This document shows, in pieces, positions 3,868 through 24,948 of a DNA stretch of 64,000 bases (within the stretch, counting starts at the first letter, position 1; every line of letters starts with the position of its first letter). The notes under the pieces are model-generated. The model was not told the DNA's origin and searched no databases. It worked only from the letters and a program-made list of their open reading frames with translations. A program made the position numbers and the translations under genes. Where the stretch lies: NCBI RefSeq assembly GCF_000526335.1, contig NZ_JAFW01000001.1, positions 2,604,001 through 2,668,000 on the forward strand. Direction: 5' to 3'. Origin of the DNA: Arthrobacter sp. 31Y (GTDB lineage Bacteria; Actinomycetota; Actinomycetes; Actinomycetales; Micrococcaceae).

Positions 3868-5070
3868 TCACAGAGGATCTCCGCTGGATTCACTGAACCC
3901 GGCTTCGCCAGCGTCGGATCCTCCAACCACGGCGATGGCGCCGACCAGGAGGGCGGCGTTGGCCCAGAAGATTCCGAGCACACCCAAGGGCGCTGCGAAG
4001 GAGCCAACAGCCAGTGGCAGGGCGATCTGGGCCAGTCTGTTGACGGTCATGCGGAGCCCAAGGACCGCGCCGTGATTGGCAGTGGCTGTCAGGGATACTA
4101 CCCAGGCCATGGTCAGGGGCTGTGGAATGCCGAGGCCAAGGCCGAGCCCCACCATGACAGCAATGGCACCCCAAGGTCCTACAAAGGGAAGTGCGGCCAG
4201 GGAGGCGACGGCAGCCGCCATAGAGATGACCAGAATGGCCTTGCGGCCAAAGCGATGAATGAGCCGTGAAAGACCAAGCCGGCTAAGAACCGATACTGCA
4301 GCGCGCAGCGCCAGCAAGAGACCCACGGCGGCGGCACTGACGTTCTGCTCGGTGGCCCAGACCGGGACAAAGGCATACATGAGGTCAACGGTCACCAGCA
4401 CGGCGCCGCTGACGACAAGTGAACGCCAGAGTCCCGGGGATTTGAGGACATGGGTGACTTTGATGGGCCCTGCAACGGAGCGCCTCCCTTCACGGAGACG
4501 CGCGTCCGTTCGGCGGAGAAAGAAATATGCGGGAGTCGCCAGGGTGCTGAAGCACAGGCAGACCACCAGGCCCAGGCTGGTGTCTGGCTGGGCTCCTTGC
4601 GCGACACCCAGTGAGGCGATGATGGTCACTGCGGGCGGTCCGATGAGCTGGCCAATTGAGGCCGCCGCTGTGAGGGTCCCGAAGGCGCTGTCAGAAGAGC
4701 CGCCTTTACTGATATGGGCGACAAAAGCCTGCTGGCCCACCATGACCATGAGGTGCCCCAAGCCAATGACGGCACTGGCGATCAGCAGGACCGGAAGGCC
4801 GCGGAGGGTCAGCATGGTGAGCGTTCCGGCGGCTGCAGTCAGCAGCCCGGTGAACGCCACGGCAGTGCCGCCAAATTTGTCTGCTGTCCGTCCAGCCGTG
4901 AGTGCCAGCAGCAGTGCCGGGAGCGCAAAGCTGGAGGCTAATAGTCCCAAGAAGGCGGGGTCGGCGCCTTCTGCCAGCGCCCGGTATCCGATGATCAGCC
5001 GGATGCCCACCCATGAGGCCTGGGCCATGATCGTCTGGGAGCTGAGGGCTAAGCGCCACCTGTCATTCAC
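3868..5070 (-). CDS. MFS transporter
   Basis: A 400-residue protein of about twelve hydrophobic segments with MFS-type short loops (AGRTADKFGG after TM2, LIHRFGRKA after TM8). The central loop near residues 195-215 is charged. Its ATG overlaps the stop of the upstream RpiR-type regulator (ATGA), so the two are one transcript. Position next to the tctBAC genes suggests a carrier for a small organic acid or sugar acid, but sequence alone does not give substrate or direction. Confidence 0.85.
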   Translation of the reverse strand: MNDRWRLALSSQTIMAQASWVGIRLIIGYRALAEGADPAFLGLLASSFALPALLLALTAGRTADKFGGTAVAFTGLLTAAAGTLTMLTLRGLPVLLIASAVIGLGHLMVMVGQQAFVAHISKGGSSDSAFGTLTAAASIGQLIGPPAVTIIASLGVAQGAQPDTSLGLVVCLCFSTLATPAYFFLRRTDARLREGRRSVAGPIKVTHVLKSPGLWRSLVVSGAVLVTVDLMYAFVPVWATEQNVSAAAVGLLLALRAAVSVLSRLGLSRLIHRFGRKAILVISMAAAVASLAALPFVGPWGAIAVMVGLGLGLGIPQPLTMAWVVSLTATANHGAVLGLRMTVNRLAQIALPLAVGSFAAPLGVLGIFWANAALLVGAIAVVGGSDAGEAGFSESSGDPL

Positions 5071-5909
5071 GCCCGGAGGGGAATCTCATCTGCGCCACCG
5101 AGCAGTCTGGTGAGGTCCTCGATCGCATCGCGTGCCGCCCGATACCGCGCTGGGTCCAGGTGGAAAATGGCGAGCTGCAAGGAATAGGCGAGCATAATTG
5201 GAACGAGCTGAGTGCGGTATTCTCCATCGTCACCCCGCCTGGCCGTGATGAGGTGATCGGGGCTGGGCCGGAAGCGGTAGCCGGGAACGTCCGAAAGCAG
5301 GATGGTCTTCCCGCCCCTTCGGGCAGCTTCGGAGACCAGTGCGGCGAGTTGACTTGGCGCCTCACGCAGGGCCAGCCCGATCAGGGTGCTGTTGCTGTCA
5401 AAGCTGGCAAAACGTTCGGCCATGTCTTTGGGGGTCGTGCCCAGCGAAACAGTAGTCAGGCCCAGCCTCCGCAAGCGTCGGGCCAGAAGGTCCCGCGTTG
5501 GCTTGTCATCTTCGCGGGAGAACAAGTAAATCGTCTGCGATTCATGCAATGTCCTAGCGGCAGCATCCAGTACTTCTTGGGGGACGAAGTGGGGAAGACG
5601 CTTCAGGGCCAGGATTTCGTCAGCGACGAAAGCGGAGAGGTCGTAGCCCGAGTCACCCCGCATGACGCCGCCGTGGTGTTCGGTGATCTCCGTTTCGTCC
5701 TTGCGGAGATCGTTCCGCAGGTCGGGATAGCCGCGGTATCCGAGCTTCTTTGCGAGGCGAACCACCGTGGACTCGTGAGTTTTGGCCCGCTCGGCTACTT
5801 CCGCGGCCGGTATGCCGGACATGGTGCCTGACATGAGCACGTTCATGACGCGTTCTTCCGAGGCGCTGAGGCGGACGGTGCTGCTGGCAACTACTGCTTT
5901 GAAACTCAA
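5067..5909 (-). CDS. MurR/RpiR-family transcriptional regulator
   Basis: N-terminal HTH_6 domain (LSASEERVMNVLMSG, then IPAAEVAERAKTHESTVVRLAKKLGYRGYPDLR-like recognition region) followed by a SIS sugar-phosphate-type fold (about residues 125-260, TIYLFSREDDKPTRDLLARRL, GLALREAP). I place the start at the TTG at 5909 because a strong AAGGAG lies 7 bases upstream; longer readings to 6002 or 6080 lack a ribosome site and extend into the divergent promoter. This gives 280 residues. It overlaps the MFS gene by 4 bp and faces tctB across 150 bp holding an inverted repeat, so it probably controls both. Confidence 0.85.
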   Translation of the reverse strand: MSFKAVVASSTVRLSASEERVMNVLMSGTMSGIPAAEVAERAKTHESTVVRLAKKLGYRGYPDLRNDLRKDETEITEHHGGVMRGDSGYDLSAFVADEILALKRLPHFVPQEVLDAAARTLHESQTIYLFSREDDKPTRDLLARRLRRLGLTTVSLGTTPKDMAERFASFDSNSTLIGLALREAPSQLAALVSEAARRGGKTILLSDVPGYRFRPSPDHLITARRGDDGEYRTQLVPIMLAYSLQLAIFHLDPARYRAARDAIEDLTRLLGGADEIPLRA

Positions 5910-5970
5910 GATGGCTCTCCTTTGAGGCCCAGCGGAAATTCCTGTGATGCTTGACACTCTCTCATGAACC

Positions 5971-5992
5971 TGCAATCCTGTGCAAGATTGCA
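5971..5992. promoter_or_regulatory. Candidate operator, inverted repeat between rpiR-type gene and tctB
   Basis: TGCAATC and GATTGCA are perfect inverted repeats separated by 8 bp, and the spacer itself contains another TGCAA. It is the clearest dyad in the divergent intergenic region. An RpiR-type dimer is the obvious candidate ligand; this is inference from placement. Confidence 0.4.
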
Positions 5993-6061
5993 AGTTCGTC
6001 ATGATGGCGAATGCTGCATCACTATTTTCTCCACTTTGCCGCAGAGAGGCGGACAACGAAG

Positions 6062-6655
6062 ATGCAAACCCTCCAAGCACCCGTTGCGCTTGAATGGACG
6101 GTCGCTGCGGCGGCTGTCGCAGGCGGGCTGACCATGGCTGTGGTCGGCGCAGGGTATGGAATGACTAACACCTCCGGCGTTGGCGCCGGATTCTTTCCCA
6201 CTGTCGCTGGATCGCTCATGGCGTTGGCAGGTGTTCTGTGGGCGGGGCAGCTATTGGCAGCCCGTCGGACCATCGCAGTAGTTCCTGCAGGCGATACCCA
6301 GGAGTCCGTACCACCCCACCACGATTCTGAATCCGCGCTGGTAGCCCTGCTGGATGACGACAACAGCGATGAACCTGACGCCGGCGACTTCCCGGACCGC
6401 CAGGGCTGGATCCGTGTAGGGATCATCACCGCATCACTTTTGGGAGCAGCGCTCCTCCTGCCCCTCTTGGGCTACACGGTGGTGATGACGCTGATGCTCG
6501 GGACCATCCTCTTCTTCGTCAGTAAACGCAAGCTCTGGCTCGCCGCCGTTGTCGCACTTGGCGCCGCATTGGCATCCCGTCTGGTCTTCGAGGTGTGGCT
6601 CGGAACGGCACTGCCCACCGCCAGCATCGAATTCCTCGCAGGGTTGGGACTCTAG
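6062..6655 (+). CDS. tctB: Tripartite tricarboxylate transporter small membrane subunit (TctB)
   Basis: About 198 residues from the ATG at 6062; a longer reading to 6011 is possible but adds an atypical leader. Four hydrophobic segments (near residues 12-30, 48-66, 123-142, 150-185) with an acidic cytoplasmic loop (LLDDDNSDEPDAGDFPD) match the TctB layout. With the large TctA permease two bases downstream and the TctC binding protein after it, this forms a complete secondary tripartite system for di- or tricarboxylates energised by the membrane gradient. Confidence 0.85.
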   Translation: MQTLQAPVALEWTVAAAAVAGGLTMAVVGAGYGMTNTSGVGAGFFPTVAGSLMALAGVLWAGQLLAARRTIAVVPAGDTQESVPPHHDSESALVALLDDDNSDEPDAGDFPDRQGWIRVGIITASLLGAALLLPLLGYTVVMTLMLGTILFFVSKRKLWLAAVVALGAALASRLVFEVWLGTALPTASIEFLAGLGL

Positions 6656-6657
6656 CC

Positions 6658-8181
6658 ATGGGATTCGATCAGCTTCTGGGTGGACTCGCCACCGTCTTCA
6701 CTCCTGAACACCTTCTCTTTGCCCTTCTGGGGTGCGTCCTCGGCATGCTGGTGGGTGTCCTGCCGGGCTTCGGCCCGGCGGCCGCCGTGTCACTGCTGAT
6801 ACCGGTAACTTTTGGACTGGATGCCACTTCGGCGATCATCATGCTGGCCGCCATCCTTTACGGTGCAGCTTACGGCGGAACCACGACGGCGGTCCTGCTG
6901 CGGATCCCTGGCGAAGCCTCCTCCATCGCGACTACTTTGGACGGCTACCAGATGGCCAAGAAGGGGCGCGGCGGCCCGGCTCTGGTCATCGCAGCGCTGG
7001 CATCGTTCGTCGGCGGCCTCATCGGCGTGGTGGGATTCGTCGTCGTCGCACCGTTCAGCCGTCTGGCTCTCGAGTTCGGAGCTCCGGAACTGTTCCTCGT
7101 TTCCCTTCTGGGCTTCGCCCTGATCACCAGCTTTGCCGGCAACAATCCTGCCAAGGCTTTGCTCAGTGCGGCCGCGGGACTGGCGATCGCGACGGTGGGT
7201 GTTGACTCCGGTGTAGGGATCGCACGCTTCACCTTCGATATGCCTGAGCTGTTTGACGGCCTGGGCCTGGTAGCTGTGGTGATGGGTGTCTTCGGCCTCA
7301 GCGAAGTCCTCGGACAAGCGCAGAAGGGGCCGTTGGGTGTCCCCAGCCCCCTCAAGGTTGCCAGGCTGCTGCCCACGCGGACGGACCTCCAGCGTTCGGC
7401 CCTCCCGTCCATCCGAGGATCCATCATCGGATTCTTCATGGGACTTCTCCCCGGGTCCCCGGGCGCCGCGACGTCCCTGGCCTCCTACGCTGCCGAGAAG
7501 AAGCTTTCCAAGCACCGGTCCGAGTTCGGCAAGGGTGCCGTGGAAGGTATCGCGGGTCCGGAATCGGCGAACAATGCCCTGGCCGTGTCCTCCATGATTC
7601 CGCTGTTCACCCTCGGGATCCCCACATCGGCAACGGTGGCCATCATGGCCGGAGCGTTCACCATGAACGGGCTGATCCCAGGGCCGCTGTTATTCCGGGA
7701 CAACCCGGACGTGGCATGGGCGATCATCGCCAGCCTCATCGTGGGCAACCTCATCCTGCTGGTGCTCAACGTCCCGCTGGCCCGGGTTTGGATCGCAGTA
7801 TTGAAAGTCCCGTTCCACTACCTGATGGCAGCAATCCTCGCCTTCATGTTCCTGGGCACCTACTCCATCAACGGCAGCGCCTTCGACATCCTCATCATGC
7901 TGGCCGCCGGTGTCCTGGGATACATCTTCCAGCTGACCAAGGTTCCGCTCACCCCGCTGGTCCTGGGCCTGATCCTTGGACCGCTGCTCGAAGAAAACTT
8001 CCAGCGGTCCCTGGCACTGTCGCAGGGCGACTATAGCGTCTTCCTCCAGGGTCCCATCAGCCTGGTCCTCATCGGCGTCATAGCCATCGCCATCCTGTTC
8101 GGCGCCGTCCGTCCACTCATCGCATCACTGCTGAAGAAGAAATCAACCACCCCCATCGCACCAAAGGAGCTTGCGAAATGA
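6658..8181 (+). CDS. tctA: Tripartite tricarboxylate transporter large permease (TctA)
   Basis: A 507-residue polytopic protein with the family hallmarks GMLVGVLPGFGPAAAVSLLIP near the N-terminus, YGAAYGGTTTAVLLRIPGE, the second inverted copy GFFMGLLPGSPGAATSLASYA, and GPESANNALAVSSMIPLFTLGIPTSAT. The ATG at 6658 starts two bases after the tctB stop. The last codons overlap tctC by ATGA. Length and topology are normal for the family. Confidence 0.93.
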   Translation: MGFDQLLGGLATVFTPEHLLFALLGCVLGMLVGVLPGFGPAAAVSLLIPVTFGLDATSAIIMLAAILYGAAYGGTTTAVLLRIPGEASSIATTLDGYQMAKKGRGGPALVIAALASFVGGLIGVVGFVVVAPFSRLALEFGAPELFLVSLLGFALITSFAGNNPAKALLSAAAGLAIATVGVDSGVGIARFTFDMPELFDGLGLVAVVMGVFGLSEVLGQAQKGPLGVPSPLKVARLLPTRTDLQRSALPSIRGSIIGFFMGLLPGSPGAATSLASYAAEKKLSKHRSEFGKGAVEGIAGPESANNALAVSSMIPLFTLGIPTSATVAIMAGAFTMNGLIPGPLLFRDNPDVAWAIIASLIVGNLILLVLNVPLARVWIAVLKVPFHYLMAAILAFMFLGTYSINGSAFDILIMLAAGVLGYIFQLTKVPLTPLVLGLILGPLLEENFQRSLALSQGDYSVFLQGPISLVLIGVIAIAILFGAVRPLIASLLKKKSTTPIAPKELAK

Positions 8182-9188
8182 AGAAGGCCACAACACTGAT
8201 CACCACGGCCGTCGCCGCATCCATGGCCCTGGCGCTCTCTGCCTGTGGCGGCCAGGCCGGCAGCACCACGAGCGCAGCAGCCGTCGACTTCCCCAAATCG
8301 GGGACCACCATCGAATGGATCGTCCCGTCCGCGGCAGGAGCGGGCAATGACATCCTTGCCCGCATCGTGGCACCGGCAATGCAGGAAGACCTTGGAGCCA
8401 ACATCAAAGTGGTCAACAAGGAAGGCGGAAGCCAAGTCGTCGGACTGAACTATGCAGCCCAGGCAAAACCCGACGGCCAAACTTTCGTCAACACCAACAT
8501 TCCCTCCATACTCGGACGCTACCTGGACCCCAGCAAGAAAGCCGCATTCGACCGGAGCAGCTTCACCCCCATTGGCTCTTTCGCCACAAACTCCGTAGTG
8601 ATCGGCGTCAACAAGGACAGCAAGTACAAGTCCATCAAGGAACTGTTCGACGCCGTGAAGGCAGCACCGGGAAAGATCACCGTGGGCACGGACTCGCGCG
8701 CCGGTGACGATCACATCAACCTGCGCTTGTTGGAGGACCAGTTGGGACTGGACTTCAACATCGTTCATTACAACAGCGGGGCCGATAAGGTAGCCGCCAT
8801 CGTCTCCGGCGAAGTCGACTTCGCCCTTGGAGGAGTCTCCAGCTTCTTCGGCCAGTACAAATCAGGCGACATCAAGCTCCTTACCGTCATCGAAGACACG
8901 CCGAGCTCGTTTGTGCCGGATGTGCCCACCCTGAAGAGCGCCGGCTACGACGTCAAACCCATGTCCAGCACGTTCTCGCTATCGGTCCCGTCCAAGACTC
9001 CCAAGGAGATTGTCGCCAAGCTCGAAGCTTCCCTGAAGAAGGCCGCCGAGACCCCTGCGGTTCAGGAAAAGCTGAAGGGCGCAGCTACACAGCCTGCCTG
9101 GGTCTCCGCGGCGGACGTCAGCAAGCTCTGGGAGCAGCGCGAAGCCGAGATCAAGCCCATCATCGCCGAACTCCTTCAGCAGAAGTGA
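8178..9188 (+). CDS. tctC: Tripartite tricarboxylate transporter binding lipoprotein (TctC/Bug family)
   Basis: 336 residues. The signal peptide ends in the lipobox ALSAC, so in this Gram-positive the receptor is lipid-anchored rather than periplasmic. Family features: IEWIVPSAAGAGNDILARIVAPAMQEDLG near the start, the GSxxVGLNYAAQAKPDGQT-type stretch, and FALGGVSSFFGQYKSGDIKLLTV. Bug proteins bind carboxylates such as citrate, terephthalate or protocatechuate-type acids. Its neighbours (PDC-degrading enzymes) suggest an aromatic-derived polycarboxylate as ligand; this is inferred. Confidence 0.9.
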   Translation: MKKATTLITTAVAASMALALSACGGQAGSTTSAAAVDFPKSGTTIEWIVPSAAGAGNDILARIVAPAMQEDLGANIKVVNKEGGSQVVGLNYAAQAKPDGQTFVNTNIPSILGRYLDPSKKAAFDRSSFTPIGSFATNSVVIGVNKDSKYKSIKELFDAVKAAPGKITVGTDSRAGDDHINLRLLEDQLGLDFNIVHYNSGADKVAAIVSGEVDFALGGVSSFFGQYKSGDIKLLTVIEDTPSSFVPDVPTLKSAGYDVKPMSSTFSLSVPSKTPKEIVAKLEASLKKAAETPAVQEKLKGAATQPAWVSAADVSKLWEQREAEIKPIIAELLQQK

Positions 9189-9826
9189 CCGTGGACTCCA
9201 TCAGAAAGGCCGGCGAACCCATGCAGCCGACACACCATTCCCTGACTACAGCAGACCTCGTACGCCGACTCGGAGCCATTCCGGCGGCCAACATCGGAGA
9301 TGCCCAGGAAAGGATCGGGGTAGCCTCCGGACTGTCGCCCATATGGACCGGGGCCAAGCTCGCGGGCCCGGCCTACACGATTTGGACCCGGCAGGGAGAC
9401 AACCTGTTCATCCACAAGGCCCTCGAAGAGGCACAGCCCGGCGATGTAATCGTGGTCAACGGCGGCGGCGACCAATCACGGGCCCTCATCGGAGACATGA
9501 TTGGCATCCGGGCGCGGAACCAAGGCATTGCAGGGTTTGTCATCGACGGAGCCGTCCGGGACGCTGACGCGCTGGCCGACTGTGGCCTCCCGGTGTTCGC
9601 CCGTTCCGTGACACCGGCGGGGCCGTACAAGTTCGGCCCCGGCCGACTGCAAGTGCCGGTGGCAATCGACGGCGTTGTAGTGGCGCCTGGGGACATCGTT
9701 GTGGGGGACGCTGACGGGATCGTTGTGGTCAGACGCGAGGAAGCAGAGCACGTCCTCGCCGAAGCAGAAAAGATCGAGGCCAGGGAAGTCGCGAAGAGAG
9801 TCTCTTACGAGGCGCCTGTGGCGTAG
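9185..9826 (+). CDS. RraA-family aldolase/decarboxylase (first copy)
   Basis: 213 residues with the RraA/HMG-CHA aldolase fold: NIGDAQERIGVASGLSPIW, GPAYTIWTRQGDNLFIHKALEEA, and the catalytic R-D pair in GFVIDGAVRDADAL, with the C-terminal GDIVVGDADGIVVV. The GTG start overlaps the tctC stop by 4 bp; an ATG at 9221 is an alternative. Members cleave 4-hydroxy-4-methyl-2-oxoglutarate or 4-carboxy-4-hydroxy-2-oxoadipate, or decarboxylate oxaloacetate. Because a second, longer RraA protein lies inside the PDC operon, this copy may serve another substrate of the same transporter. Confidence 0.85.
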   Translation: MTVDSIRKAGEPMQPTHHSLTTADLVRRLGAIPAANIGDAQERIGVASGLSPIWTGAKLAGPAYTIWTRQGDNLFIHKALEEAQPGDVIVVNGGGDQSRALIGDMIGIRARNQGIAGFVIDGAVRDADALADCGLPVFARSVTPAGPYKFGPGRLQVPVAIDGVVVAPGDIVVGDADGIVVVRREEAEHVLAEAEKIEAREVAKRVSYEAPVA

Positions 9827-9962: not shown

Positions 9963-10622
9963 CTATGGCCTTGAATCTCGAATTGCTTGCGCAACGCTCT
10001 CAAGATGCAGCCTCATGGCTTCTGCAGCCCCCTGGGGATCCTGGCGGCAAACAGCGTCGATGATGGCAAGATGTTGTGGCAAGGACACGCTGGGGCGACC
10101 TGGCTGCCGGGCAAGCTGGAATTGGTATCTGACAGCCTGTCCTCTGAGTCGCCGAATCGTGGCAGCCGCTGTTTCCTGTGCGCTGATCTCAATGATTTTG
10201 GCGTGCAGTCTCTTGTTGCAGGCCGAGTACGCCTCCCGGTCATTGCGGGCGACCGTCTCCTCCATCTCGCGGGCCAGAGTCCTGAGTCCTTCAGCCTCAA
10301 TGTCGCTGATCTTCTCCGCGGCTTTTCGTGCGCAAAGTGCTTCCAACGCTCCGCGAACTTCCGTGATTTCTATGGCCTCCTCCATGGAAACCGCCCTGAC
10401 TCGGGCACCGCGGTTTTGGACCCGCTCTACCAGTCCCTCAACGCTGAGCTCCGTCAGAGCCACGCGCACGTTTCCTCGGCTCGCACCGTAATCGACAGCC
10501 AAATCGGCTTCCACAAGCCTCTGTCTTGGAACAAGCTCACCGCTCACGATGGCTCTCCTCAAGATTTCCACCAGTTGCTGAGCCGAAAGCGACGGCCCTT
10601 TCGAGTCGGTCACCGTCGTCAT
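9963..10622 (-). CDS. GntR-family (FadR/FCD) transcriptional regulator
   Basis: From the ATG at 10622 (GGAGGG 7 bases upstream) the protein is 219 residues. Residues 10-75 form the winged helix (LSAQQLVEILRRAIVSGELVPRQRLVEADLAVDYGASRGNVRVAL region, ending ...VEGLVERVQNRGARV), followed by an all-helical FCD ligand domain (EITEVRGALEALCARKAAEK, HAKIIEISAQETAA, QHLAIIDAV..DP with metal-binding His). FCD regulators typically sense small carboxylates. It is divergent from the PDC-pathway operon and is the likely local repressor. Confidence 0.88.
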   Translation of the reverse strand: MTTVTDSKGPSLSAQQLVEILRRAIVSGELVPRQRLVEADLAVDYGASRGNVRVALTELSVEGLVERVQNRGARVRAVSMEEAIEITEVRGALEALCARKAAEKISDIEAEGLRTLAREMEETVARNDREAYSACNKRLHAKIIEISAQETAAATIRRLRGQAVRYQFQLARQPGRPSVSLPQHLAIIDAVCRQDPQGAAEAMRLHLESVAQAIRDSRP

Positions 10623-10700
10623 GATGCACCCTCCTTCGCGCCTGACTCCAGTGTAAACAATTCCGTCACAGAGATGAGCCGCTTGAAAGCAAGAAAAATA

Positions 10701-10718
10701 GTTAGAGGGATTGCTAAC
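10701..10718. promoter_or_regulatory. Candidate GntR operator upstream of PDC operon
   Basis: GTTAG-8 bp-CTAAC is an inverted repeat in the AT-rich divergent region between the GntR gene and the tautomerase gene, about 55 bp before the latter's start. The usual FCD consensus (TNGTNNNACNA) is not matched exactly, so this is a weak call. Confidence 0.3.
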
Positions 10719-10773
10719 AATTTTGCCAACGACTATTGTGTGTACTGCATCACCATCTACGAAAGGGAACGCT

Positions 10774-11967
10774 GTGGTTCCGACAGTCATCCGAGAGGCA
10801 CTGGAAGCTGGCCCCCGCCAAGCCGGCAGTCAGTTTGCGGTCCCGTGTTGGGTTATGCGCGGAGGAACGTCGAAAGGGCCGTTCTTCCGCGCTGACGATC
10901 TACCCGCCGACGTGGACGCCCGAAACGCCATTCTTCTGGCAGCAATGGGTTCACCGGACCAGCGGCAGATCGACGGTTTGGGCGGGGCTCATCCTTTGAC
11001 GAGCAAGGCTGGGATTGTCGCAGTGAGCCACCAGGACGGTGTAGACCTTGAATTTCTGTTCGCGCAGCTGCAGCCCGGGAGTAGCACGGTGGACACCTCT
11101 GCCAACTGCGGAAACATGCTGGCAGCTGTGGTTCCTTTCGCTATCGAAGCCGGGCTGCTGGTCCCCGTCGAGGACACGACAACCGCGCGGGTTCTCACAC
11201 TGAACACAGGGGTCATCGCTGAGATTTCCATTTCGACGCCGTCCAGTGGGGAAGGCCGCTATGTCGAGTATGGCGGGGATACGAGGATCGATGGCGTCCC
11301 CGGAACCTCTGCTGCGGTAGTCATCAACTTCCTCGATACAGCCGGCTCGGTGTGCGCATCATTGCTTCCCACCGGAAACCTGCGGGACACGGTGGAGATC
11401 GAGGGTTTCGGTTCAGTGGACGTCACCTGCATCGACAACGGGCAGCCGCTGGTGATCATCGACGCAATCGTGCTGGAGCGCACGGGCCGGGAACCCGTCG
11501 TCGAACTTGAAGCCGATACGGCGCTCAAAGGGCGGCTGGAAGCGCTCCGCTTGGACTGCGGGAAACTCATGGGACTCGGCGACGTGAGCGGCAAGAACTA
11601 TCCCAAGATGACGCTCGTATCTGCACCGGCGAGCGGCGGCGCGATCGGAACCCGCAGCTTTATCCCCCATGCCTGCCATGAGTCGATCGGCGTGCTGGCC
11701 GCCGTGACGGTGGCAACTGCTGCGGTGCTGCCTGGGACTGTGGCGCATTCTGTGGCCGCTCTGCCCGCCGGTGCGAAGCCGGTTGTTTCGGTCGAACACC
11801 CCAGCGGCGAATTCACGGTCCAGCTCGAACTGGACCCGGCCGATCCCAGGCGCGTGATCAAGTCTGCGCTCTTAAGAACAGCGCGCTTGATCATGGCCGG
11901 CGACGTCATGGTTCCTTCACGTCTCTGGCATTCGCCAACTGATACTCCTAAGGAGCAAGAAAAGTGA
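10774..11967 (+). CDS. 4-oxalomesaconate tautomerase (PrpF-family isomerase)
   Basis: 397 residues from a GTG at 10774, behind AAAGGGA. PrpF-fold hallmarks: CWVMRGGTSKGPFFRADDLP, GGAHPLTSKAGIV, and the second active-site segment TSANCGNMLAAVVPFAIE; later ARLIMAGDVMVP. PrpF proteins include methylitaconate/aconitate isomerases and the oxalomesaconate isomerases GalD and LigU. The following gene is a LigJ-type hydratase with a GTGA overlap, and LigK- and LigI-type genes follow, so the oxalomesaconate assignment rests on context. It would move the double bond so that LigJ can hydrate the product. Confidence 0.85.
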   Translation: MVPTVIREALEAGPRQAGSQFAVPCWVMRGGTSKGPFFRADDLPADVDARNAILLAAMGSPDQRQIDGLGGAHPLTSKAGIVAVSHQDGVDLEFLFAQLQPGSSTVDTSANCGNMLAAVVPFAIEAGLLVPVEDTTTARVLTLNTGVIAEISISTPSSGEGRYVEYGGDTRIDGVPGTSAAVVINFLDTAGSVCASLLPTGNLRDTVEIEGFGSVDVTCIDNGQPLVIIDAIVLERTGREPVVELEADTALKGRLEALRLDCGKLMGLGDVSGKNYPKMTLVSAPASGGAIGTRSFIPHACHESIGVLAAVTVATAAVLPGTVAHSVAALPAGAKPVVSVEHPSGEFTVQLELDPADPRRVIKSALLRTARLIMAGDVMVPSRLWHSPTDTPKEQEK

Positions 11968-12989
11968 TTATCGACATCCACGGCCACTACACCACGGCCC
12001 CGCCGGCCCTCGGCCAGTGGCGGGACCGCCAGATCGCCGGATTGATCGACCCGGCTTTGGCGCCGCGTCCCTCGGAGCTGAAGATTTCCGACGCCGAGCT
12101 GCAGGAAAGCATCGAGCGGAACCAATTGCGGCTCATGGATGAGCGTGGGATTGACCTGACGGTCTTCTCGCCCCGGGCGTCCTTCATGGCGCATCATGTT
12201 GGATCCTTTGAAACGTCCGCTGAGTGGGCGGCCATCTGCAATGAACTTTGTTACCGTGTCAGCCAGCTGTACCCGGAGCGCTTCGTACCGGCAGCGATGC
12301 TTCCGCAGTCGCCGGGCGTCGATCCGGCGAGTTGCATTCCGGAATTGACCCGCTGCGTCGAGGAATACGGTGCTGTGGCCCTGAACCTGAACCCCGACCC
12401 GTCCGGCGGCCACTGGACTGCACCTCCGTTGACGGATCGATACTGGTACCCCATTTACGAAAAGATGGTGGAATACGACATCCCTGGCATGGTCCACGTC
12501 AGTACCAGCATCAACCCGGCTTTCCACACCACCGGCGCCCATTATCTGAATGCCGACACCACGGCATTCATGCAGCTGATCCAGGGCGATCTTTTCGCCG
12601 ACTTCCCCACTCTGAAACTAGTGATTCCCCACGGCGGGGGAGCTGTTCCCTACCATTGGGGACGCTTCCGTGGGCTGGCCATGGCGATAGGGAAGCCCTC
12701 ACTGGAAGAGCATCTGCTGGGCAATGTCTTCTTCGATACCTGCGTCTATCACCAGCCAGGCATCGATCTCCTGTTGGACGTCGTCCCCACCCGCAACGTC
12801 TTATTCGCGTCCGAAATGATCGGCGCCGTCCGCGACGTCGACCCCTGCACGGGCCACAACTTCGATGACACTGCCCGGTACCTCGACGCAGCCGGACTCA
12901 CCGATCCCGATCTCGCAGCTATTCAGGAACACAACGCCCGTACCGTCTACCCCCGCCTCAACGCACTGCTCAAACAGCAGGGCCGCTAG
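11964..12989 (+). CDS. ligJ: 4-oxalomesaconate hydratase, LigJ type
   Basis: 341 residues, amidohydrolase superfamily. It begins MIIDIHGHYTTAPPALGQWR with the metal-binding HxH, and continues with FSPRASFMAHH, AICNELCYRVSQLYP, LNLNPDPSGGHW, VIPHGGGAVPYHWGRFRG and FASEMIGAVRDVDP, all of which are characteristic of proteobacterial LigJ. The reaction is hydration of 4-oxalomesaconate to 4-carboxy-4-hydroxy-2-oxoadipate. Start is GTG overlapping the tautomerase stop; AGGAG lies 9 bases upstream. Similarity to LigJ over the whole length looks high, which suggests acquisition or strong conservation rather than a generic amidohydrolase. Confidence 0.92.
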   Translation: MIIDIHGHYTTAPPALGQWRDRQIAGLIDPALAPRPSELKISDAELQESIERNQLRLMDERGIDLTVFSPRASFMAHHVGSFETSAEWAAICNELCYRVSQLYPERFVPAAMLPQSPGVDPASCIPELTRCVEEYGAVALNLNPDPSGGHWTAPPLTDRYWYPIYEKMVEYDIPGMVHVSTSINPAFHTTGAHYLNADTTAFMQLIQGDLFADFPTLKLVIPHGGGAVPYHWGRFRGLAMAIGKPSLEEHLLGNVFFDTCVYHQPGIDLLLDVVPTRNVLFASEMIGAVRDVDPCTGHNFDDTARYLDAAGLTDPDLAAIQEHNARTVYPRLNALLKQQGR

Positions 12990-13008
12990 CTACAAGGAGC
13001 TCAGAACC

Positions 13009-13692
13009 ATGCAGGAACTAGGAGTAGTCCACCGCAATGTCACCCGCGCCGCGGACGTTGATGTTAAAGCCCTCTCGGAATTCGGTGTCAGCACCATTCA
13101 CGAGGCCATGGGCCGGTTGGGGCTGATGCGCCCCTATATCCGGCCCGTGTTTCCAGGCGCCAAACTGTGCGGCACCGCCGTCACAGTGCTGCTGCAACCT
13201 GGTGACAACTGGATGATGCACGTAGCCGCCGAGCAGATCCAGGCCGGCGACGTTCTGGTAGCGGCCTGCACCACAGAAAGCGATGACGGCTTCTTCGGCG
13301 ATCTGCTGGCCACTTCCCTCCAATCCCGGGGTGCTGCCGGTTTGGTGATCGACGGCGGCTGCCGGGACATCGCCACACTGCAGGAAATGAACTTCCCCGT
13401 CTTCAGCCGCGCCATCAACTCCAAGGGCACCGTCAAAGCGACACTGGGTTCAGTCAATATTCCCGTGGTGTGCGCCAACGCCCTGGTCACCCCAGGCGAC
13501 GTTGTGGTTGCAGACGTCGACGGCGTCGTGGTGGTCCCGGCTGACCGTGCTGCAGAAGTCGCTGAAGCAGCCCGCAAACGGGAAGACAATGAAGAGAGCA
13601 AGCGTCAGCGCTTTGCCGCCGGAGAACTGGGCCTTGATATCTATTCGATGCGCGGACCGTTGGCCGATGCGGGGCTGCGTTATGTCGACTAA
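13009..13692 (+). CDS. ligK: 4-carboxy-4-hydroxy-2-oxoadipate aldolase (LigK/ProA, RraA fold)
   Basis: 227 residues starting at the ATG after AAGGAG. RraA-fold signatures: FGVSTIHEAMGRLGLM, GTAVTVLLQPGDNWMMHVA, catalytic R/D in LVIDGGCRDIATLQE, and GDVVVADVDGVVVVPADRA. It keeps the longer C-terminus typical of the CHA aldolases (KRQRFAAGELGLDIYSMRGPL). It would split the LigJ product into pyruvate and oxaloacetate. Placement between ligJ and ligI in one operon fixes the role better than sequence alone. Confidence 0.9.
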   Translation: MQELGVVHRNVTRAADVDVKALSEFGVSTIHEAMGRLGLMRPYIRPVFPGAKLCGTAVTVLLQPGDNWMMHVAAEQIQAGDVLVAACTTESDDGFFGDLLATSLQSRGAAGLVIDGGCRDIATLQEMNFPVFSRAINSKGTVKATLGSVNIPVVCANALVTPGDVVVADVDGVVVVPADRAAEVAEAARKREDNEESKRQRFAAGELGLDIYSMRGPLADAGLRYVD

Positions 13693-13705
13693 TACAGGAA
13701 CCACC

Positions 13706-14623
13706 GTGGAAACTTTTACAAAGACCCCTGGATGGCTGGACTGGTACAGCGACCCGTCCACGCCGCGTTTCCAGCTTCCCGCCGGAGCTGTGGACGCCCA
13801 CTGCCACGTCTTCGGTCCGGGGGAGGAGTTCCCGTTCGCCCCGGAACGGAAGTACACCCCCTGTGACGGCGGTAAAGAGGATCTTTTTGCGCTCCGGGAC
13901 CACCTCGGCATCAGCCGGAATGTGATTGTTCAGGCAACCTGCCACGGTGCTAACAACAGCGCCATGGTGGATGCCGTCCAGGCCGCCGGCGGCCGGGCAC
14001 GCGGTATCGCCACCGTCCGGCCCGACATTTCCGATGCCGAACTCAACCGTCTGCACAGGGCGGGGGTGCGCGGCGTTCGATTCAACTTCCTGAAACGACT
14101 GGTCAGTTCCGCACCCCAGGAAGATCTGGCCACCATTGCCAGGAAGATCGCCCCTCTGGGTTGGCACGTGGTCATCTACTTTGAGGGCGAAGACTTGGAA
14201 GGACTCGAGGGATTTTTCGGTTCCCTCCCAACCCCTTTGGTGGTGGACCACATGGGGCGGCCGAATGTCACCAAACCCGTGGACGGTCCGGAGTTCAGCC
14301 GATTCCTGAGGTTCGTTGACCAGAACAATGTTTGGGTCAAAGTCAGCTGCCCGGAACGTCTCAGCGTCAGCGGTCCTCCCGCCCTGGACGGCGAACAACA
14401 TGCGTACGCCGACGCCGTTCCCTTCGGGCGGAAAGTCATTGAAGAATTCCCGGACCGAACCCTCTGGGGCACGGACTGGCCACACCCCAATCTCACCGGC
14501 CACATGCCCGATGACGGCCTGCTGGTGGACTACATCCCACAAGTTGCGGTCACACCGGAACAGCAACACAAGCTCCTGGTGGCCAATCCCATGCGGCTCT
14601 ACTGGCCAGGCGAAGACGCCTAG
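13706..14623 (+). CDS. ligI: 2-pyrone-4,6-dicarboxylate hydrolase (LigI)
   Basis: 305 residues, cog3618 amidohydrolase. Near-identical landmarks to characterised LigI: AVDAHCHVFGP, FALRDHLGISRNVIVQATCHG, GVRGVRFNFLKRLV, WHVVIYFE, VVDHMGRP, GTDWPHPN with the catalytic Asp, and LLVANPMRLYW at the end. It opens the lactone of PDC to 4-oxalomesaconate. I chose GTG 13706 (AGGA 7 bases upstream) because the distance to DAHCH then fits LigI; an ATG at 13682 overlapping the ligK stop is the alternative. Confidence 0.94.
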   Translation: METFTKTPGWLDWYSDPSTPRFQLPAGAVDAHCHVFGPGEEFPFAPERKYTPCDGGKEDLFALRDHLGISRNVIVQATCHGANNSAMVDAVQAAGGRARGIATVRPDISDAELNRLHRAGVRGVRFNFLKRLVSSAPQEDLATIARKIAPLGWHVVIYFEGEDLEGLEGFFGSLPTPLVVDHMGRPNVTKPVDGPEFSRFLRFVDQNNVWVKVSCPERLSVSGPPALDGEQHAYADAVPFGRKVIEEFPDRTLWGTDWPHPNLTGHMPDDGLLVDYIPQVAVTPEQQHKLLVANPMRLYWPGEDA

Positions 14624-14656
14624 TCTCCCTCTAGTCCCACACCCCTGAGGATTTCA

Positions 14657-16045
14657 ATGATGCACTCCAACGCGGCTAACCGGCTCGACCGGCTTCCTAT
14701 CTCCCGCCTGCACAAAATCACGCTCATCGCAGTTGCCTTCGCCTACTTCTTCGAGTTCGCGGACATCAACAGCTTCGCCACTACGGTCCCCAAACTCATC
14801 AAGCTCTGGGGCGTCACCATCAACCAGATCGCCTACGTGACGTCATTGTCGTTCGTCGGCATGTTCTTCGGCTCCCTGCTCGCCAGCTGGCTCGCCGACC
14901 GATGGGGCCGCAAGAAGGCCCTGGTCATCACCACCGTGTGGTTCTCGGTCTTTTCCTTCGCCGCAGTCTTCGCCTGGGACATCATTTCCCTCGGCGCCTT
15001 CCGGGTCCTGACGTCTGCCGGTCTGGCAGCAATGACCGTAGTTGCAGTCATCTACGTCAATGAAATCTTCCCCGCTGCCGTGCGCGGCAAGTACCAGGCC
15101 TACGCCATCGTCATCGGCATTTGCGGAACCCCCGCCACGAACCTGATCGCCAGCTTCGTGGTACCCCTCAGCGACTGGTCCTGGCGCCTGGTATACCTCT
15201 GGGGAGCCATGGGCATCGTCTTCATCCTCTTTAGTCGACACCTCAAAGAATCACCCCGCTGGTACGAGAGCAAAGGTCAGTTCGACAAAGCTCACGCCGT
15301 ATTAACGGAGATGGAAGCCCAGATCACCGCCGAAAAAGGAACGCTGCCAGAACCGGCCCCGGCTCCAGCGCTCACGGCCCCTGCCAAATCCAAGCCCAAG
15401 GCACCCCTGAAGCTCCTTCTCCAGAAGAAGTACCTCGGCCCCACCATTCTCCTGACCGTTCTGTGGGTAACCCAGACCATCGGGTTCTTCGGCTACTCCA
15501 GTTGGGCACCCACACTCCTTGCCCAGGAAGGATTCAGCGTCAGCGACTCCATCTTCTACGTCGCCCTGACCACCGTCGGCGCCCCACTGGGCTCCTATCT
15601 GGCCTCTTTGGTCACGGACCGCTTTGAACGCAAATGGTGCCTCGTGGTCTTCGGAACCACCATCGCCATCTGCGGCCTCTTCTACGGCCTCACGTTCAAC
15701 CCGATCCTCATCGTAGTCTTCGGTTTCCTCGTGAACCTCTTCGAACGCGGCTACACAGCACTCGCCTACGCCTACTCGCCCGAAGTCTTCGACACCGCCG
15801 GACGCTCACTAGGCACAGGAGTTTCCTACGGGCTCGGACGCCTCTCCAACGCTGCAGGACCGCTGATTATCGCAGGACTCTACACAGGAAGCGGCTACCA
15901 AAGCGTCTTCTTCTTCATAGCCGGCACATGGCTGTTCGGAGCCATCGTCCTGGCCCTGTTCGGACCTAAAACACGCCCGAAAGCGATTGTAAGAAGCACG
16001 TCGGCCGAATTAACTATCCAGGCACCCTCCGGAAACAATCCCTGA
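14657..16045 (+). CDS. MFS importer, probable carboxylate/aromatic acid carrier
   Basis: 462 residues, twelve membrane segments, with the metabolite:H+ symporter signatures LASWLADRWGRKKAL after TM2, VIYVNEIFPAAVRGKYQAY and LKESPRWYESKG before a long central loop rich in Pro, Ala and Lys (residues 225-255), and VTDRFERKW after TM8. GAGGA precedes the start. It is the last gene of the PDC operon, 33 bp after ligI, so it probably imports PDC or an upstream acid; the exact substrate is not visible. Confidence 0.87.
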   Translation: MMHSNAANRLDRLPISRLHKITLIAVAFAYFFEFADINSFATTVPKLIKLWGVTINQIAYVTSLSFVGMFFGSLLASWLADRWGRKKALVITTVWFSVFSFAAVFAWDIISLGAFRVLTSAGLAAMTVVAVIYVNEIFPAAVRGKYQAYAIVIGICGTPATNLIASFVVPLSDWSWRLVYLWGAMGIVFILFSRHLKESPRWYESKGQFDKAHAVLTEMEAQITAEKGTLPEPAPAPALTAPAKSKPKAPLKLLLQKKYLGPTILLTVLWVTQTIGFFGYSSWAPTLLAQEGFSVSDSIFYVALTTVGAPLGSYLASLVTDRFERKWCLVVFGTTIAICGLFYGLTFNPILIVVFGFLVNLFERGYTALAYAYSPEVFDTAGRSLGTGVSYGLGRLSNAAGPLIIAGLYTGSGYQSVFFFIAGTWLFGAIVLALFGPKTRPKAIVRSTSAELTIQAPSGNNP

Positions 16046-19408: not shown

Positions 19409-21253
19409 CTAGCGCTGGCCGCGGCTAAGACCTGTCAGCAGGGCGCTGCCCGCCTCCCGCCAGAGTCCCTGGTTGCCGGGCACTGCGGGACTTTCTTCCA
19501 AATATTTAATCCAATCGCCGTACTCGGTAATGTCCCGCGCGCCTGCCGCGGCTACTGCATCGCATGCGAATCCCACCGCCGTGCTCCCATCGTCCAAGGT
19601 GATGGACCCCAGCAGCATGGGTTCGGGCAAGTCAGCGAGGAAAGACCCCAACGCAGCTTCGGAAAGCAGCCACCTTTCTGCCACGAGCCCGGTTCCTTGT
19701 TCGGATCGAACCACGCCGGGCTTGGGAGGGGTGGTTTCCAAGGCCACCATTCGGTACCGGGCCGCAGTGATCACCCGGCCGTCCCAGAAAGCTCCGCGCC
19801 GCTCAAGTTCCGCCGCCAAGGGCTGGCCCTTCCGGTGGGCGCCCACCACAACCAAGGGAACGACGCCGGCGCCCGCGGCAACTGGCCAGGAAACCTCTGG
19901 CGCGGCAGGCTTAGTGCTGGCAGCGCGCGCAGCACCGGCAGCGAACAGCTCTGGCTTCTCCGGCGTGCGCTCGATTCGCCGGGCGATATCCGCGGCCACG
20001 CCGTCCTCGAAGGCTCGGGCAATGACCGTCAGGCCGAACTGGGAGACGCCGTCTTCGTCAGTGACCGTACCTGCCGGCACCGCAACAGCGCTGAGATCAA
20101 AGAGGTTGCAGAAGTTCGTGTACGTGCCCATCCGGGAATTGACCCCGACGGGATCGGCCGCGACCTCGGCCAGCGTCGGATGGAAGGGGGCTGTTGGCAC
20201 CACCAGGGCATCGAAGCCGACCAGCCGCCGCATGGCCTCGTCGCGGAGCCGCTCCAAAGACGCGGTGTCCGCTACGTACTGGTGCGCAGGGATCCTGCCC
20301 GCTTTGGTGACGATCCCCGCAACGGTGGGATCGAGCGTGGCAGAAACCCCGCCGGCTTGCACCTGGTCAATGAAGCTCCCGACGGCGGCGTAGCGTTCGG
20401 CCACCAATCCGCCGTCGTACAGCAGCCGTGCTGCCTCCAGGAAGACGTCCACATCAATGGGCTCGGCCACCACCCCGGTGGACCGCAGCCGCTCGATCTG
20501 TGCCTCGAACTCGAGCGCCCACGCGTCCGGGAGGGCTGGCAGGGCGGCCGGATAGGCCACCCGCGGTGTGGCCGGCGCGGCGAACTTCACGTCCGCGGGC
20601 CAGCTACGACCCTCCCCGGCCATGATGCCCATAGCGAGCTCGGCAGTGGCGAGGTCCCGGGCGAAAATCGTGGCGGTATCCCAGGAACGGCATGCAGGAA
20701 CCACGCCCTCGGTGGACACCACGCCTAGAGTCGGTTTGATCCCCACAATTCCCTGCAGGGCAGCAGGAATCCGGCCCGAACCCGCTGTGTCCGTCCCGAT
20801 GGCGATGTCCACCAAGCCCAAGGCCACCGCCACTGCGGAACCCGAACTTGAACCGCCGGAAATTCGCTCCGGACGCCGCGAATCGCGCACGGCTCCATAC
20901 GGGCTGCGGGTACCCACCAGTCCCGTGGCGAACTGGTCCAGGTTGGTGGCCCCAAGCACCAACGCGCCCGCAGCGCGGAGCCGAGCAACCGACACCGCAT
21001 CCCGGGCGGGCAAATCGCCAAAGCCGGGGCACGCCGCCGTCGTGATCAGACCGGCAAGATCCACGTTGTTCTTTACGGCGAGCAGGAGGCCGGCAAGGGG
21101 CAGGTCCTCCCCGGCCTCCACGGCGGCGTCAATCCTGGCCGCCTCTGCGAGCAATTCATCCCGTCCCCGCAAATGAATCCAGATTTCAGGACGGTCGACG
21201 GCGTCAATCGCCTTAAGCGCGGCGAGGACGCGTTCCACCGTGGGCCCGCTCAT
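19409..21253 (-). CDS. atzF: Allophanate hydrolase
   Basis: 614 residues. The amidase-signature domain (about 1-440) has the Ser-cisSer-Lys triad: Lys in LLAVKNNVDLAG, cis-Ser and Ser in GGSSSGSAVAVALG and DTAGSGRIPAALQG. The C-terminal domain (about 470-605, VVGAHRKGQPLAAELERRGA, MLLGSITLDDGSTAVGF) is the allophanate hydrolase C-terminal fold, which decarboxylates the intermediate. Product is ammonia and CO2 from allophanate. Its ATG overlaps the carboxylase stop by 4 bp. It is the common last enzyme for urea amidolyase and for the guanidine carboxylase route. Confidence 0.93.
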   Translation of the reverse strand: MSGPTVERVLAALKAIDAVDRPEIWIHLRGRDELLAEAARIDAAVEAGEDLPLAGLLLAVKNNVDLAGLITTAACPGFGDLPARDAVSVARLRAAGALVLGATNLDQFATGLVGTRSPYGAVRDSRRPERISGGSSSGSAVAVALGLVDIAIGTDTAGSGRIPAALQGIVGIKPTLGVVSTEGVVPACRSWDTATIFARDLATAELAMGIMAGEGRSWPADVKFAAPATPRVAYPAALPALPDAWALEFEAQIERLRSTGVVAEPIDVDVFLEAARLLYDGGLVAERYAAVGSFIDQVQAGGVSATLDPTVAGIVTKAGRIPAHQYVADTASLERLRDEAMRRLVGFDALVVPTAPFHPTLAEVAADPVGVNSRMGTYTNFCNLFDLSAVAVPAGTVTDEDGVSQFGLTVIARAFEDGVAADIARRIERTPEKPELFAAGAARAASTKPAAPEVSWPVAAGAGVVPLVVVGAHRKGQPLAAELERRGAFWDGRVITAARYRMVALETTPPKPGVVRSEQGTGLVAERWLLSEAALGSFLADLPEPMLLGSITLDDGSTAVGFACDAVAAAGARDITEYGDWIKYLEESPAVPGNQGLWREAGSALLTGLSRGQR

Positions 21254-24200: not shown

Positions 24201-24948
24201 CAGGGAGGTCCGGTGCGGGTGCCTCTTCGAGTACTTTCTGGTGGCGGCGTTGCAGCGAGCAGTCACGATCTCCGAGGCTCACCACGCGACCCTTACCGTC
24301 GCCGAACACCTGGACTTCCACGTGGCGGGCGTGTTCAATGTAGCGTTCCGCGAAGACCCCGGCGGTGCCGAAGCTGGAGCTGGCCAAGCGTGCCACCCGG
24401 GAGTAATTGTCGCGGAGATCGGCCTCGTCCCGGCAAACTGCCATGCCGATGCCGCCGCCACCGCCGGTTGCCTTGAGCATGAGCGGGTAGCCGATGGTTT
24501 CCGCTGCTGCCACGGCCTCGTCCACGTCTTCCAGCAGGCCGGATCCCGCGATCATGGGAACGCCCGCGCGTTGAGCGGCATCACGCGCTGTGTGCTTGGT
24601 CCCGAAGATCCGGAGCTGTTCGGGGGTGGGCCCCACAAAGACGAGCCCGGCTGCTTCAACTGCTTCCGCGAACGCGGCGTCCTCGGACAGGAACCCGTAG
24701 CCGGGGTGAATGGCGCCGGCCCCGGTGGCAGCCGCCGCACTGAGGATGGCGTCTACCTTCAGATAGGACTCCTTGGCGGGCGCAGGTCCCAACAGGACGG
24801 CCTCATCTGCGAGCTTCACGTGTTTGGCTCCGCGGTCTGCCTCCGAGAAAACGGCGACGGTGCGCAGTCCGGCTTTGCGGGCGGATTCGATGATCCGGCA
24901 GGCGATCTCGCCGCGATTGGCAATGAGAAGGGTGTCGAAACGGTTCAT
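21250..24948 (-). CDS. Urea carboxylase family biotin enzyme (urea or guanidine carboxylase)
   Basis: 1232 residues from the ATG overlapping the upstream gene. Order of domains: biotin carboxylase (1-450; LLIANRGEIACRIIESARK, ATP grasp GGGGIGMAVCRDE, FLEVNARLQVEHPVTE), KipA/AHS2-like (about 480-790; VERPGLQTSVQDWPGRTG), KipI/AHS1-like (about 840-1050; DLTPGIRSLQIKAD), and a C-terminal biotin carrier with the biotinyl Lys in LEAMKMET. Classical annotation is urea carboxylase. Because the two DUF1989 proteins upstream are carboxyguanidine deiminase subunits in characterised systems, guanidine is the likelier substrate. Alignment of the carboxyltransferase pocket would decide. Confidence 0.92.
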   Translation of the reverse strand: MNRFDTLLIANRGEIACRIIESARKAGLRTVAVFSEADRGAKHVKLADEAVLLGPAPAKESYLKVDAILSAAAATGAGAIHPGYGFLSEDAAFAEAVEAAGLVFVGPTPEQLRIFGTKHTARDAAQRAGVPMIAGSGLLEDVDEAVAAAETIGYPLMLKATGGGGGIGMAVCRDEADLRDNYSRVARLASSSFGTAGVFAERYIEHARHVEVQVFGDGKGRVVSLGDRDCSLQRRHQKVLEEAPAPDLPDALREELHRSSRALCASVGYRSAGTVEFVYDPIRQEASFLEVNARLQVEHPVTEAITGVDLVEWMLNLAQQEPVLEGVPDSVPVSGHAVEARIYAEDPARNFQPSAGTVTNAQYPASDVVRIDAWVETGSEVSTSYDPLLGKIITSGSTRDAAFDALAAALAETRIDGIETNLGMLRAVAGMDVVRSAGHSTGTLDTVGDPEPRITVERPGLQTSVQDWPGRTGLWQIGVPPSGPMDDLSFRLGNTALGNPEGAPGLEFTMAGPALRFTHATTVCVTGADVAVTVNGVAANTWEPITVPGNGLLDVGSADGSGLRGYILFEGGLDVPQYLVSASTFTLGQFGGHGGRVLRASDVLRTVTGYLPETVPGVVPAESRPALTSEWELKVVEGPHGAPEFFQREDIEELYSAEYEVHFNSARTGVRLIGPKPRWARNDGGEAGLHPSNIHDTAYSVGALDFTGDTPILLGPDGPSLGGFVCPVTVVAGERWKLGQLRPGDKVRFVPIRSVEAPSVKELGAARQLMLPGSAGFSTGMASGTTSGTAGLLRGDGDDGVLGRVPEGEGRPAVTFRRSGDDNLLVEYGDMVLDLGLRARVHALHQELDRLRVPGIVDLTPGIRSLQIKADPSVLPTSKLLGLVREIDASLPASSELVVPSRSVRLPLSWDDPATREAIERYMAGVRDDAPWCPWNIEFIRRINGLDSVSDVFDTVFDAEYLVLGLGDVYLGAPVATPLDPRHRLVTTKYNPARTWTPENAVGIGGAYMCIYGMEGPGGYQFVGRTTQVWSRYADAAPFEPGSPWLLRFFDRISWYPVSPEELLDLRADMAAGRGRGVEIAEGTFSLAEHEEFLERNSVSIAEFRETQAAAFAVERQVWEEAGEFDRAEQAVSLAPPADDVVVPDGGTLVTSPFAASVWKVDVEPGDVVTAGQSLVSLEAMKMETVIQAPTDGIVHRVLPSAGAQVVAGEALVVLEPVDIREPALVLEGSAS

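Follow-up and report, generated by a model that had tools for sequence, protein, structure and literature searches.

A predicted operon for 2-pyrone-4,6-dicarboxylate degradation with a transporter gene and without 4,5-ring-cleavage genes in Arthrobacter sp. 31Y

Results and Discussion

The window analyzed here, a 64,000-nucleotide stretch of the genome of Arthrobacter sp. 31Y, encodes what sequence comparison confirmed as a complete enzyme set for converting 2-pyrone-4,6-dicarboxylate (PDC) into pyruvate and oxaloacetate, the lower part of the pathway. At positions 9963–16045, a GntR-family regulator gene lies divergent from five tightly packed plus-strand genes, U, J, K, I and a major facilitator superfamily (MFS) transporter gene, and the reading frames are all open (Table 1). 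The pathway is a known one; its arrangement, as read from the sequence, is new: a PDC degradation operon that includes a transporter and lacks 4,5-ring-cleavage genes. The reading that we favor, and consider fairly probable, is that of an independent operon for catabolizing PDC from outside the cell, with the MFS protein acting as importer under the control of the GntR protein.

Gene context suggests that the MFS protein brings PDC into the cell. Going by the reactions of the respective families, LigI would then open the PDC lactone to 4-oxalomesaconate, U would set the tautomer, LigJ would hydrate that tautomer, and LigK would split the hydrated product into pyruvate and oxaloacetate. The divergent FCD-type GntR protein would bind two ATTGTnAACAAT-like sites between its own gene and U, probably acting as a repressor until PDC or oxalomesaconate binds. 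A ring-cleavage step would be unneeded because the PDC would come from outside.

Table 1. Predicted features in and next to the operon, and dioxygenase genes in related loci.
Feature	Position	Strand	Basis or remark
RpiR regulator (-), then TctB, TctA, TctC and RraA-like aldolase (+)	5067..9826	mixed	Pfam, NCBIfam; judged to lie outside the PDC system
GntR-family regulator with FCD domain	9963..10622	-	Pfam GntR and FCD; frame checked
Candidate GntR operator site 1, AGTGTAAACAATTCCGTCAC	10650..10669	+	pattern at 10651-10668, 1 mismatch; similar sites in relatives
Candidate GntR operator site 2, ATTGCTAACAATTTTGCCAACG	10710..10731	+	pattern at 10711-10728, 0 mismatches; similar sites in relatives
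U, 4-oxalomesaconate tautomerase (LigU/PrpF family)	10774..11967	+	NF033377; PDB 6p3j
J, 4-oxalomesaconate hydratase (LigJ type, Amidohydro_2)	11964..12989	+	PDB 2gwg, 6dwv
K, 4-carboxy-4-hydroxy-2-oxoadipate aldolase / oxaloacetate decarboxylase	13009..13692	+	TIGR02798; PDB 3noj
I, 2-pyrone-4,6-dicarboxylate hydrolase LigI	13682..14623	+	PDB 4d8l
MFS transporter, aromatic acid:H+ symport relative, proposed PDC importer	14657..16045	+	TIGR00895, below cut-off; LigI neighbor in relatives
VOC extradiol dioxygenase (catechol 2,3-dioxygenase-like), related loci	L013:5174-6169 (-); L002:7778-8746; L119:13474-14436 (-); L012:18816-19772; L160-L168		with K-U or U-J-K, often with GntR

Gene layout and enzyme identities

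An earlier note on this DNA had described a GntR regulator, then tautomerase, LigJ, LigK and LigI genes with overlaps or short gaps, and an MFS gene; every one of them was located in its place. U overlaps J and K overlaps I, and the remaining intergenic gaps measure 19 and 33 bp with the presumptive starts of Table 1. These starts lie downstream of where the open reading frames (ORFs) open, namely 10711 for U (presumptive GTG start at 10774), 12865 for K and 13502 for I. The GntR ORF runs to 10790, and its start was placed at the ATG following an AGGAGG-like site.

The enzyme identities, which the note had read from motifs, were upheld by NCBIfam and PDB sequence matches. U scored 488.5 bits against NF033377 (4-oxalomesaconate tautomerase; cut-off 440) and 343.2 bits against the oxalomesaconate isomerase 6p3j. 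J matched the 4-oxalomesaconate hydratases 2gwg and 6dwv over its full length (588.9 and 476.9 bits), the next PDB molecule being a biphenyl meta-cleavage compound hydrolase at only 178.1 bits. K exceeded the cut-off of TIGR02798 (LigK/PcmE; 390.6 bits against 304.5) and scored 259.5 bits against 3noj, and I reached 358.4 bits against the PDC hydrolase 4d8l, with the next protein at 105.4 bits. Alignment with 4d8l (whose numbering is used here) revealed that I conserves His31, His33, Tyr49, Arg124, Arg130, Tyr156, His180, Arg183, Asp248 and Asn253, which we take to be the catalytic or key positions of LigI. Identification of LigI as a 4-sulfomuconolactone hydrolase was rejected based on its score against NF042924 (207.7 bits; cut-off 500).

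A second LigK-like aldolase is encoded elsewhere in the genome (L181:6114-6788), near hpaD and by a homoprotocatechuate-type gene cluster. It scored 225.4 bits against NF006731 (cut-off 179) and fell below the TIGR02798 cut-off.

LigI, LigJ, LigK and LigU of Sphingobium SYK-6 carry out the same four reactions, and the best PDB matches of U, J, K and I are to structures from these enzyme families. In SYK-6 these enzymes act after LigAB and LigC or after gallate dioxygenase; the operon in the window differs in that it includes a transporter and in that a LigAB- or gallate dioxygenase-type gene was not found. The gal cluster of Pseudomonas putida likewise unites tautomerase, aldolase and MFS importer genes, but it begins with a gallate dioxygenase gene, its GalB hydratase is unrelated to LigJ, and it needs no PDC hydrolase. 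Closer in host is the protocatechuate (PCA) 4,5-cleavage operon of Pseudarthrobacter phenanthrenivorans Sphe3 and Arthrobacter keyseri 12B, also an actinobacterial system with lower PCA meta-cleavage genes, which is termed “Comamonas type” and, unlike the window, has a fused alpha/beta PCA 4,5-dioxygenase (PcaA) and a LysR-type regulator, PcaR (excerpt of PMC8431788). Nine LigB-containing actinobacterial loci, taken here as being of the Sphe3/12B type, have J, K and I products 70–74% identical to those of the window; they differ from it by a Gfo/Idh dehydrogenase gene (LigC by position) and by lacking the MFS, U and the operator described below. In L123, the one of them annotated in detail, a fused PCA 4,5-dioxygenase gene (899.1 bits) precedes the Gfo/Idh dehydrogenase gene and has a LysR gene on its opposite flank, which agrees with PcaA and PcaR of Sphe3 (excerpt of PMC8431788).

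Ring-cleavage genes in the genome

Neither LigA (PF07746) nor the LigB fold (PF02900) produced a match anywhere in the 5.08 Mb genome (2 contigs, listed as 100% complete), so the genome-wide search for ligAB by which the earlier note had proposed to check its reading came out in its favor. The LigB-fold search was positive in 4 of 14 control genomes. PF07746 matched none of these 14; in a separate control run on 27 genomes of related loci it was positive in 9/9 proteobacterial and 2/18 actinobacterial genomes. With both searches empty and the LigA control positive, a LigAB pair hidden elsewhere in the genome was rejected. No LigC-like match was obtained at positions 2001–24000 of the window, the part of the genome to which the LigC search was confined. 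Ring cleavage by a VOC-type enzyme elsewhere in the genome was rejected as well. Of the two VOC proteins found there, one is HpaD (445.8 bits), encoded next to homoprotocatechuate-type genes, and the other resembles catechol 2,3-dioxygenase (33–35% identity); VOC proteins of PDC/oxalomesaconate clusters are 67–98% identical to one another (n=6).

The absence of ring-cleavage genes, claimed in the earlier note, therefore stood, within the bounds of these searches, for the LigA/LigB 4,5-type but not overall, as the same genome encodes the protocatechuate 3,4-dioxygenase PcaHG, beside a dehydroshikimate dehydratase-like gene. Across 23 genomes (that of the window and 22 with related clusters), PF02900 matched in 12, with E below 1e-60 only in two LigA-positive Amycolatopsis genomes.

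Distribution of the transporter and of LigB

We tabulated 39 actinobacterial loci, counting as “the MFS” any relative with >60% identity, a threshold of our own choosing. Being related, the loci do not give independent counts; their flanks differ in length (10 to 22 kb), and 18 of the loci come from the best 80 of at least 585 confirmed matches. Leaving out five loci with LigI and no J, three with J and no I (L013, L014 and L055) and one at a contig end (L118), there were 30 loci with both I and J. The MFS alone was present in 20 of these and LigB alone in nine, while none had both and one had neither (Fisher p = 7e-7 without correction for relatedness). Such mutual exclusion beside LigI fits import. 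Among assessable LigB-less loci having both I and J, the MFS gene adjoins LigI in 20 of 21, and it directly follows I in all 20 MFS loci despite gene orders that vary among U-J-K-I-MFS, J-I-MFS, J-K-I-MFS and I-MFS-U-J-K. The three loci with J and no LigI also lack the MFS and LigB.

As judged from these loci, operons of this type recur among actinobacteria. The same architecture was found in Micrococcaceae (L001, which is from Arthrobacter sp. Leaf137, L003 and L004) and Streptomyces (L015, L029). Within the window's family, a LigI relative at E <= 1e-60 was detected in 22 of 216 genomes, nine of which have a LigB-type gene within about 1.5 kb of LigI. In the LigI tree, the LigB-linked sequences (nine actinobacterial and five proteobacterial) form one clade with 100/100 support, outside of which the window's LigI falls; LigI of the window's kind was not resolved as a single clade.

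The MFS protein scored best against TIGR00895 (aromatic acid:H+ symport), at 216.1 bits against a cut-off of 418.55, and is thus a relative of that family rather than a member. Its closest relative among the best 120 of 958 database matches, at 96% identity, is from Paenarthrobacter nitroguajacolicus, and these 120 bore general transporter names only; a relative with 92% identity is encoded by Pseudarthrobacter chlorophenolicus A6. A genome survey for MFS relatives scored seven candidates per genome, and its misses mean little. Pairs of a U-like gene (31–34%) and an MFS gene (42–44%) are present in three other genomes.

At L055:4419-5468, in a Nocardiopsis U-J-K cluster without LigI, a DUF6282 protein was observed together with an NMT1-type binding protein; that the DUF6282 protein substitutes for the hydrolase would be a guess.

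Regulation

The GntR protein matched PF00392 and PF07729 (FCD) above cut-off, which places it with the FadR type. Of the other 24 LigB-less loci that carry J, 13 contain a relative of it with 49–83% identity, whereas the nine LigB loci contain none. A ATTGTnAACAAT-like element is common to the stretch before U in six loci. The operator pattern TTGYNAACAATTNNGYNA was derived visually, using six of the 25 LigB-less loci, with up to 2 mismatches allowed and matches counted anywhere in the fetched stretch. On this count, a ATTGTCAACAAT-like candidate operator is present in 22 of the 25 LigB-less loci that carry J (16 of 19 once the six source loci are left out) and in 0/9 LigB loci; across the same 25 loci the reversed pattern matched none and 20 shuffled patterns matched 0–4. 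In the Arthrobacter sp. 31Y genome, the single 0-mismatch match (10711) precedes the PDC operon, as does one (10651) of the two matches with 1 mismatch, and the total with up to 2 mismatches (40) is near the control level given by the reversed pattern (30).

No operator-like site with up to 2 mismatches was found within 40 kb of pcaHG, and a shared regulon with pcaHG was rejected on that ground. The same search bears on a ring-cleavage gene under the same regulator, which the earlier note had named as counter-evidence to its proposal and which did not come to light there. Because the best operator matches sit at the operon and none near pcaHG, the PDC pathway seems to have a switch of its own, with no ring-cleavage gene of the genome seen under it.

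In the three loci that lack the operator pattern (L005, L009 and L016, all Streptomyces), conserved genes for a sensor kinase and a response regulator, of the OmpR two-component type, diverge from J-I-MFS, and a gene for an NMT1_3-type binding protein comes next. A two-component system in this position fits an external signal. GTTA direct repeats were noticed by eye in the spacer upstream of J-I-MFS in these three loci. Separately, a solitary LigI relative (L130) has an operator-like site close by, in front of it by coordinates.

VOC dioxygenase modules in related loci

A VOC-fold extradiol dioxygenase gene was found near the cluster in several relatives. In L002, L011, L012, L119 and L132 it shares the locus with LigI and the MFS, and in L013 and L014 it accompanies U-J-K and an ABC importer, without LigI and the MFS. 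Nine Streptomyces and Amycolatopsis genomes carry J-I-MFS with no adjoining K or U; in all nine, the best K relative is followed by U and a VOC gene (at least its start), either nearby (L011, L012) or elsewhere in the genome (the other seven), and a GntR gene lies in the fetched flank of the K-U-VOC unit in 7/9. The VOC fragments of the Streptomyces K-U units are 49–53% identical to the VOC protein of L013. This recurrent enzyme is a candidate for a new type of gallate/oxalomesaconate-forming dioxygenase. We infer that VOC with U-J-K acts on a substrate, such as gallate, whose cleavage yields oxalomesaconate directly, and that LigI with the MFS serves PDC, the window carrying only the latter branch.

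More generally, actinobacteria may possess a widespread, separately regulated form of PDC assimilation with a dedicated importer, one that feeds on ready-made PDC (e.g. of Rosoideae) and is not a segment of a ring-cleavage pathway. Its split form in Streptomyces and Amycolatopsis would stand beside a K-U and VOC module, often with GntR, that is perhaps a new gallate dioxygenase type. Our confidence in this wider proposal is about evenly divided.

Sources of PDC

PDC is a polymer building block that is usually treated as an intracellular intermediate. If the favored reading is true, the dedicated importer and a regulator responding to PDC would serve as useful components in PDC bioproduction, the operon would show which microbes consume PDC in soil and on leaves, and the PDC of Rosoideae plants would have a microbial consumer. 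That PDC exists outside such cells follows from its report in Rosoideae, of which it is a chemotaxonomic marker with 0.1–2% reported across genera and 1–1.7% in dry strawberry leaf (excerpt of PMC9415522); Geum and Sibbaldianthe contain it too (excerpt of PMC10304466). A plant source is thus reasonable, and Rosoideae plant material or other lignin degraders could plausibly provide the substrate. The titles and abstract openings of the open-access literature searched contained no report of a PDC importer or of a stand-alone PDC operon.

Alternative explanations

Direct uptake, as proposed in the earlier note, is strengthened by the mutual exclusion of the MFS and LigB beside LigI, by the seemingly private regulation and by the occurrence of PDC in plants. 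The lack of a LigA or LigB match and the exclusion pattern fit import of PDC; what did not hold was the role given to TctABC, and the route through PcaHG had been overlooked, as had the occurrence of PDC in Rosoideae. Uptake of oxalomesaconate, which the note had offered beside PDC, is less likely, since LigI has been kept and stands together with the transporter.

Several observations weigh against the reading of a free-standing operon for external PDC. The MFS protein lies below the cut-off for aromatic acid symporters and its substrate specificity is unreadable from sequence, and in one genome with LigI in a LigB cluster (G234), a 76% MFS relative is encoded apart from the PDC genes. At one locus (L117, in G148), J-K-I is accompanied neither by the MFS nor by LigB, and five LigI relatives (54–62%; L130, L131, L133–L135) have no J, K, MFS or LigB nearby, so LigI can occur without the MFS. 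Among the 22 loci with the operator pattern, eight show no GntR relative in the fetched stretch. The split seen in the LigI tree is not repeated in the LigJ tree, where actinobacterial LigB-linked J sequences fall among other actinobacterial J; the actinobacterial LigB clusters accordingly look mosaic. As for the source, how PDC arises biologically in strawberry leaves is said to await definitive elucidation (excerpt of PMC9415522). Lastly, PcaH is encoded in 22 of the 23 genomes, including that of the window, so that PDC could be made inside the cell.

This last point underlies the main rival, in which the MFS protein imports gallate, 3-O-methylgallate or a relative, chromosomal PcaHG makes PDC from it and the operon finishes the degradation. 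PcaHG of P. putida reportedly turns gallate into PDC, and wild-type A. baylyi forms a little PDC from syringate, which the authors ascribe to a PcaHG activity called minor or modest (excerpt of PMC12481942). The presence of pcaHG beside the dehydroshikimate dehydratase-like gene and the relationship of the MFS protein to aromatic-acid symporters are in keeping with such a route, but the low activity in A. baylyi and the lack of an operator-like site near pcaHG are not. The only direct case against it is a Streptomyces genome (G017) that has the full operon and neither a PcaH nor a LigA match; G017 is a draft with completeness not stated, where the missing PcaH may be a gap, and the LigB-fold search gave two weaker matches in it (E 5.6e-35 and 1.4e-34). 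Clusters that seemingly make oxalomesaconate directly (L013, L014) do without LigI and the MFS and use an ABC importer, which speaks against this rival, although L002, L119 and L132 combine a VOC gene with LigI and the MFS. The window's MFS protein is also only 22–25% identical to the nearest MFS of LigB-like, LigI-less loci (L019, L063). Taken together, we regard import of gallate or a relative as unlikely, though deserving of serious attention.

Considerably less probable is import through the neighboring TctABC system, which would take up PDC, oxalomesaconate or another tricarboxylate and leave the MFS protein as an accessory or an exporter. Its unit directly adjoins the PDC operon, with a gene for an RraA-like relative of LigK at its end, and a tripartite transporter carries terephthalate in Comamonas (title of a reference in PMC10510227). 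The unit has its own RpiR regulator, however; the operator pattern has no match between 5067 and 9826 with up to 3 mismatches; and the RraA-like protein passes the cut-off of NF004850 but not those of the LigK models. Because a TctA match at E <= 1e-15 occurs in none of the other 38 actinobacterial loci, TctABC is probably unrelated to the operon, and it was rejected as part of the PDC system. The two import systems of the earlier note are thereby reduced to the MFS, which belongs to the conserved unit. Least credible of all, and very improbable in our estimation, is that the operon is a remnant of a protocatechuate 4,5-cleavage cluster that lost LigAB and LigC. The family does include genomes having LigB clusters with J-K-I, three of them within the same genus, and the LigJ tree would accommodate such an origin; a remnant is at odds with the GntR in place of a LysR regulator, the additional U and MFS genes, the separate operator and the position of LigI outside the LigB-linked clade, as well as with intact reading frames and an architecture that recurs in Micrococcaceae and Streptomyces.

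Elsewhere in the window, two long ORFs on the minus strand (19409–25008) appear, as judged from translation only, to be allophanate hydrolase- and urea carboxylase-like.

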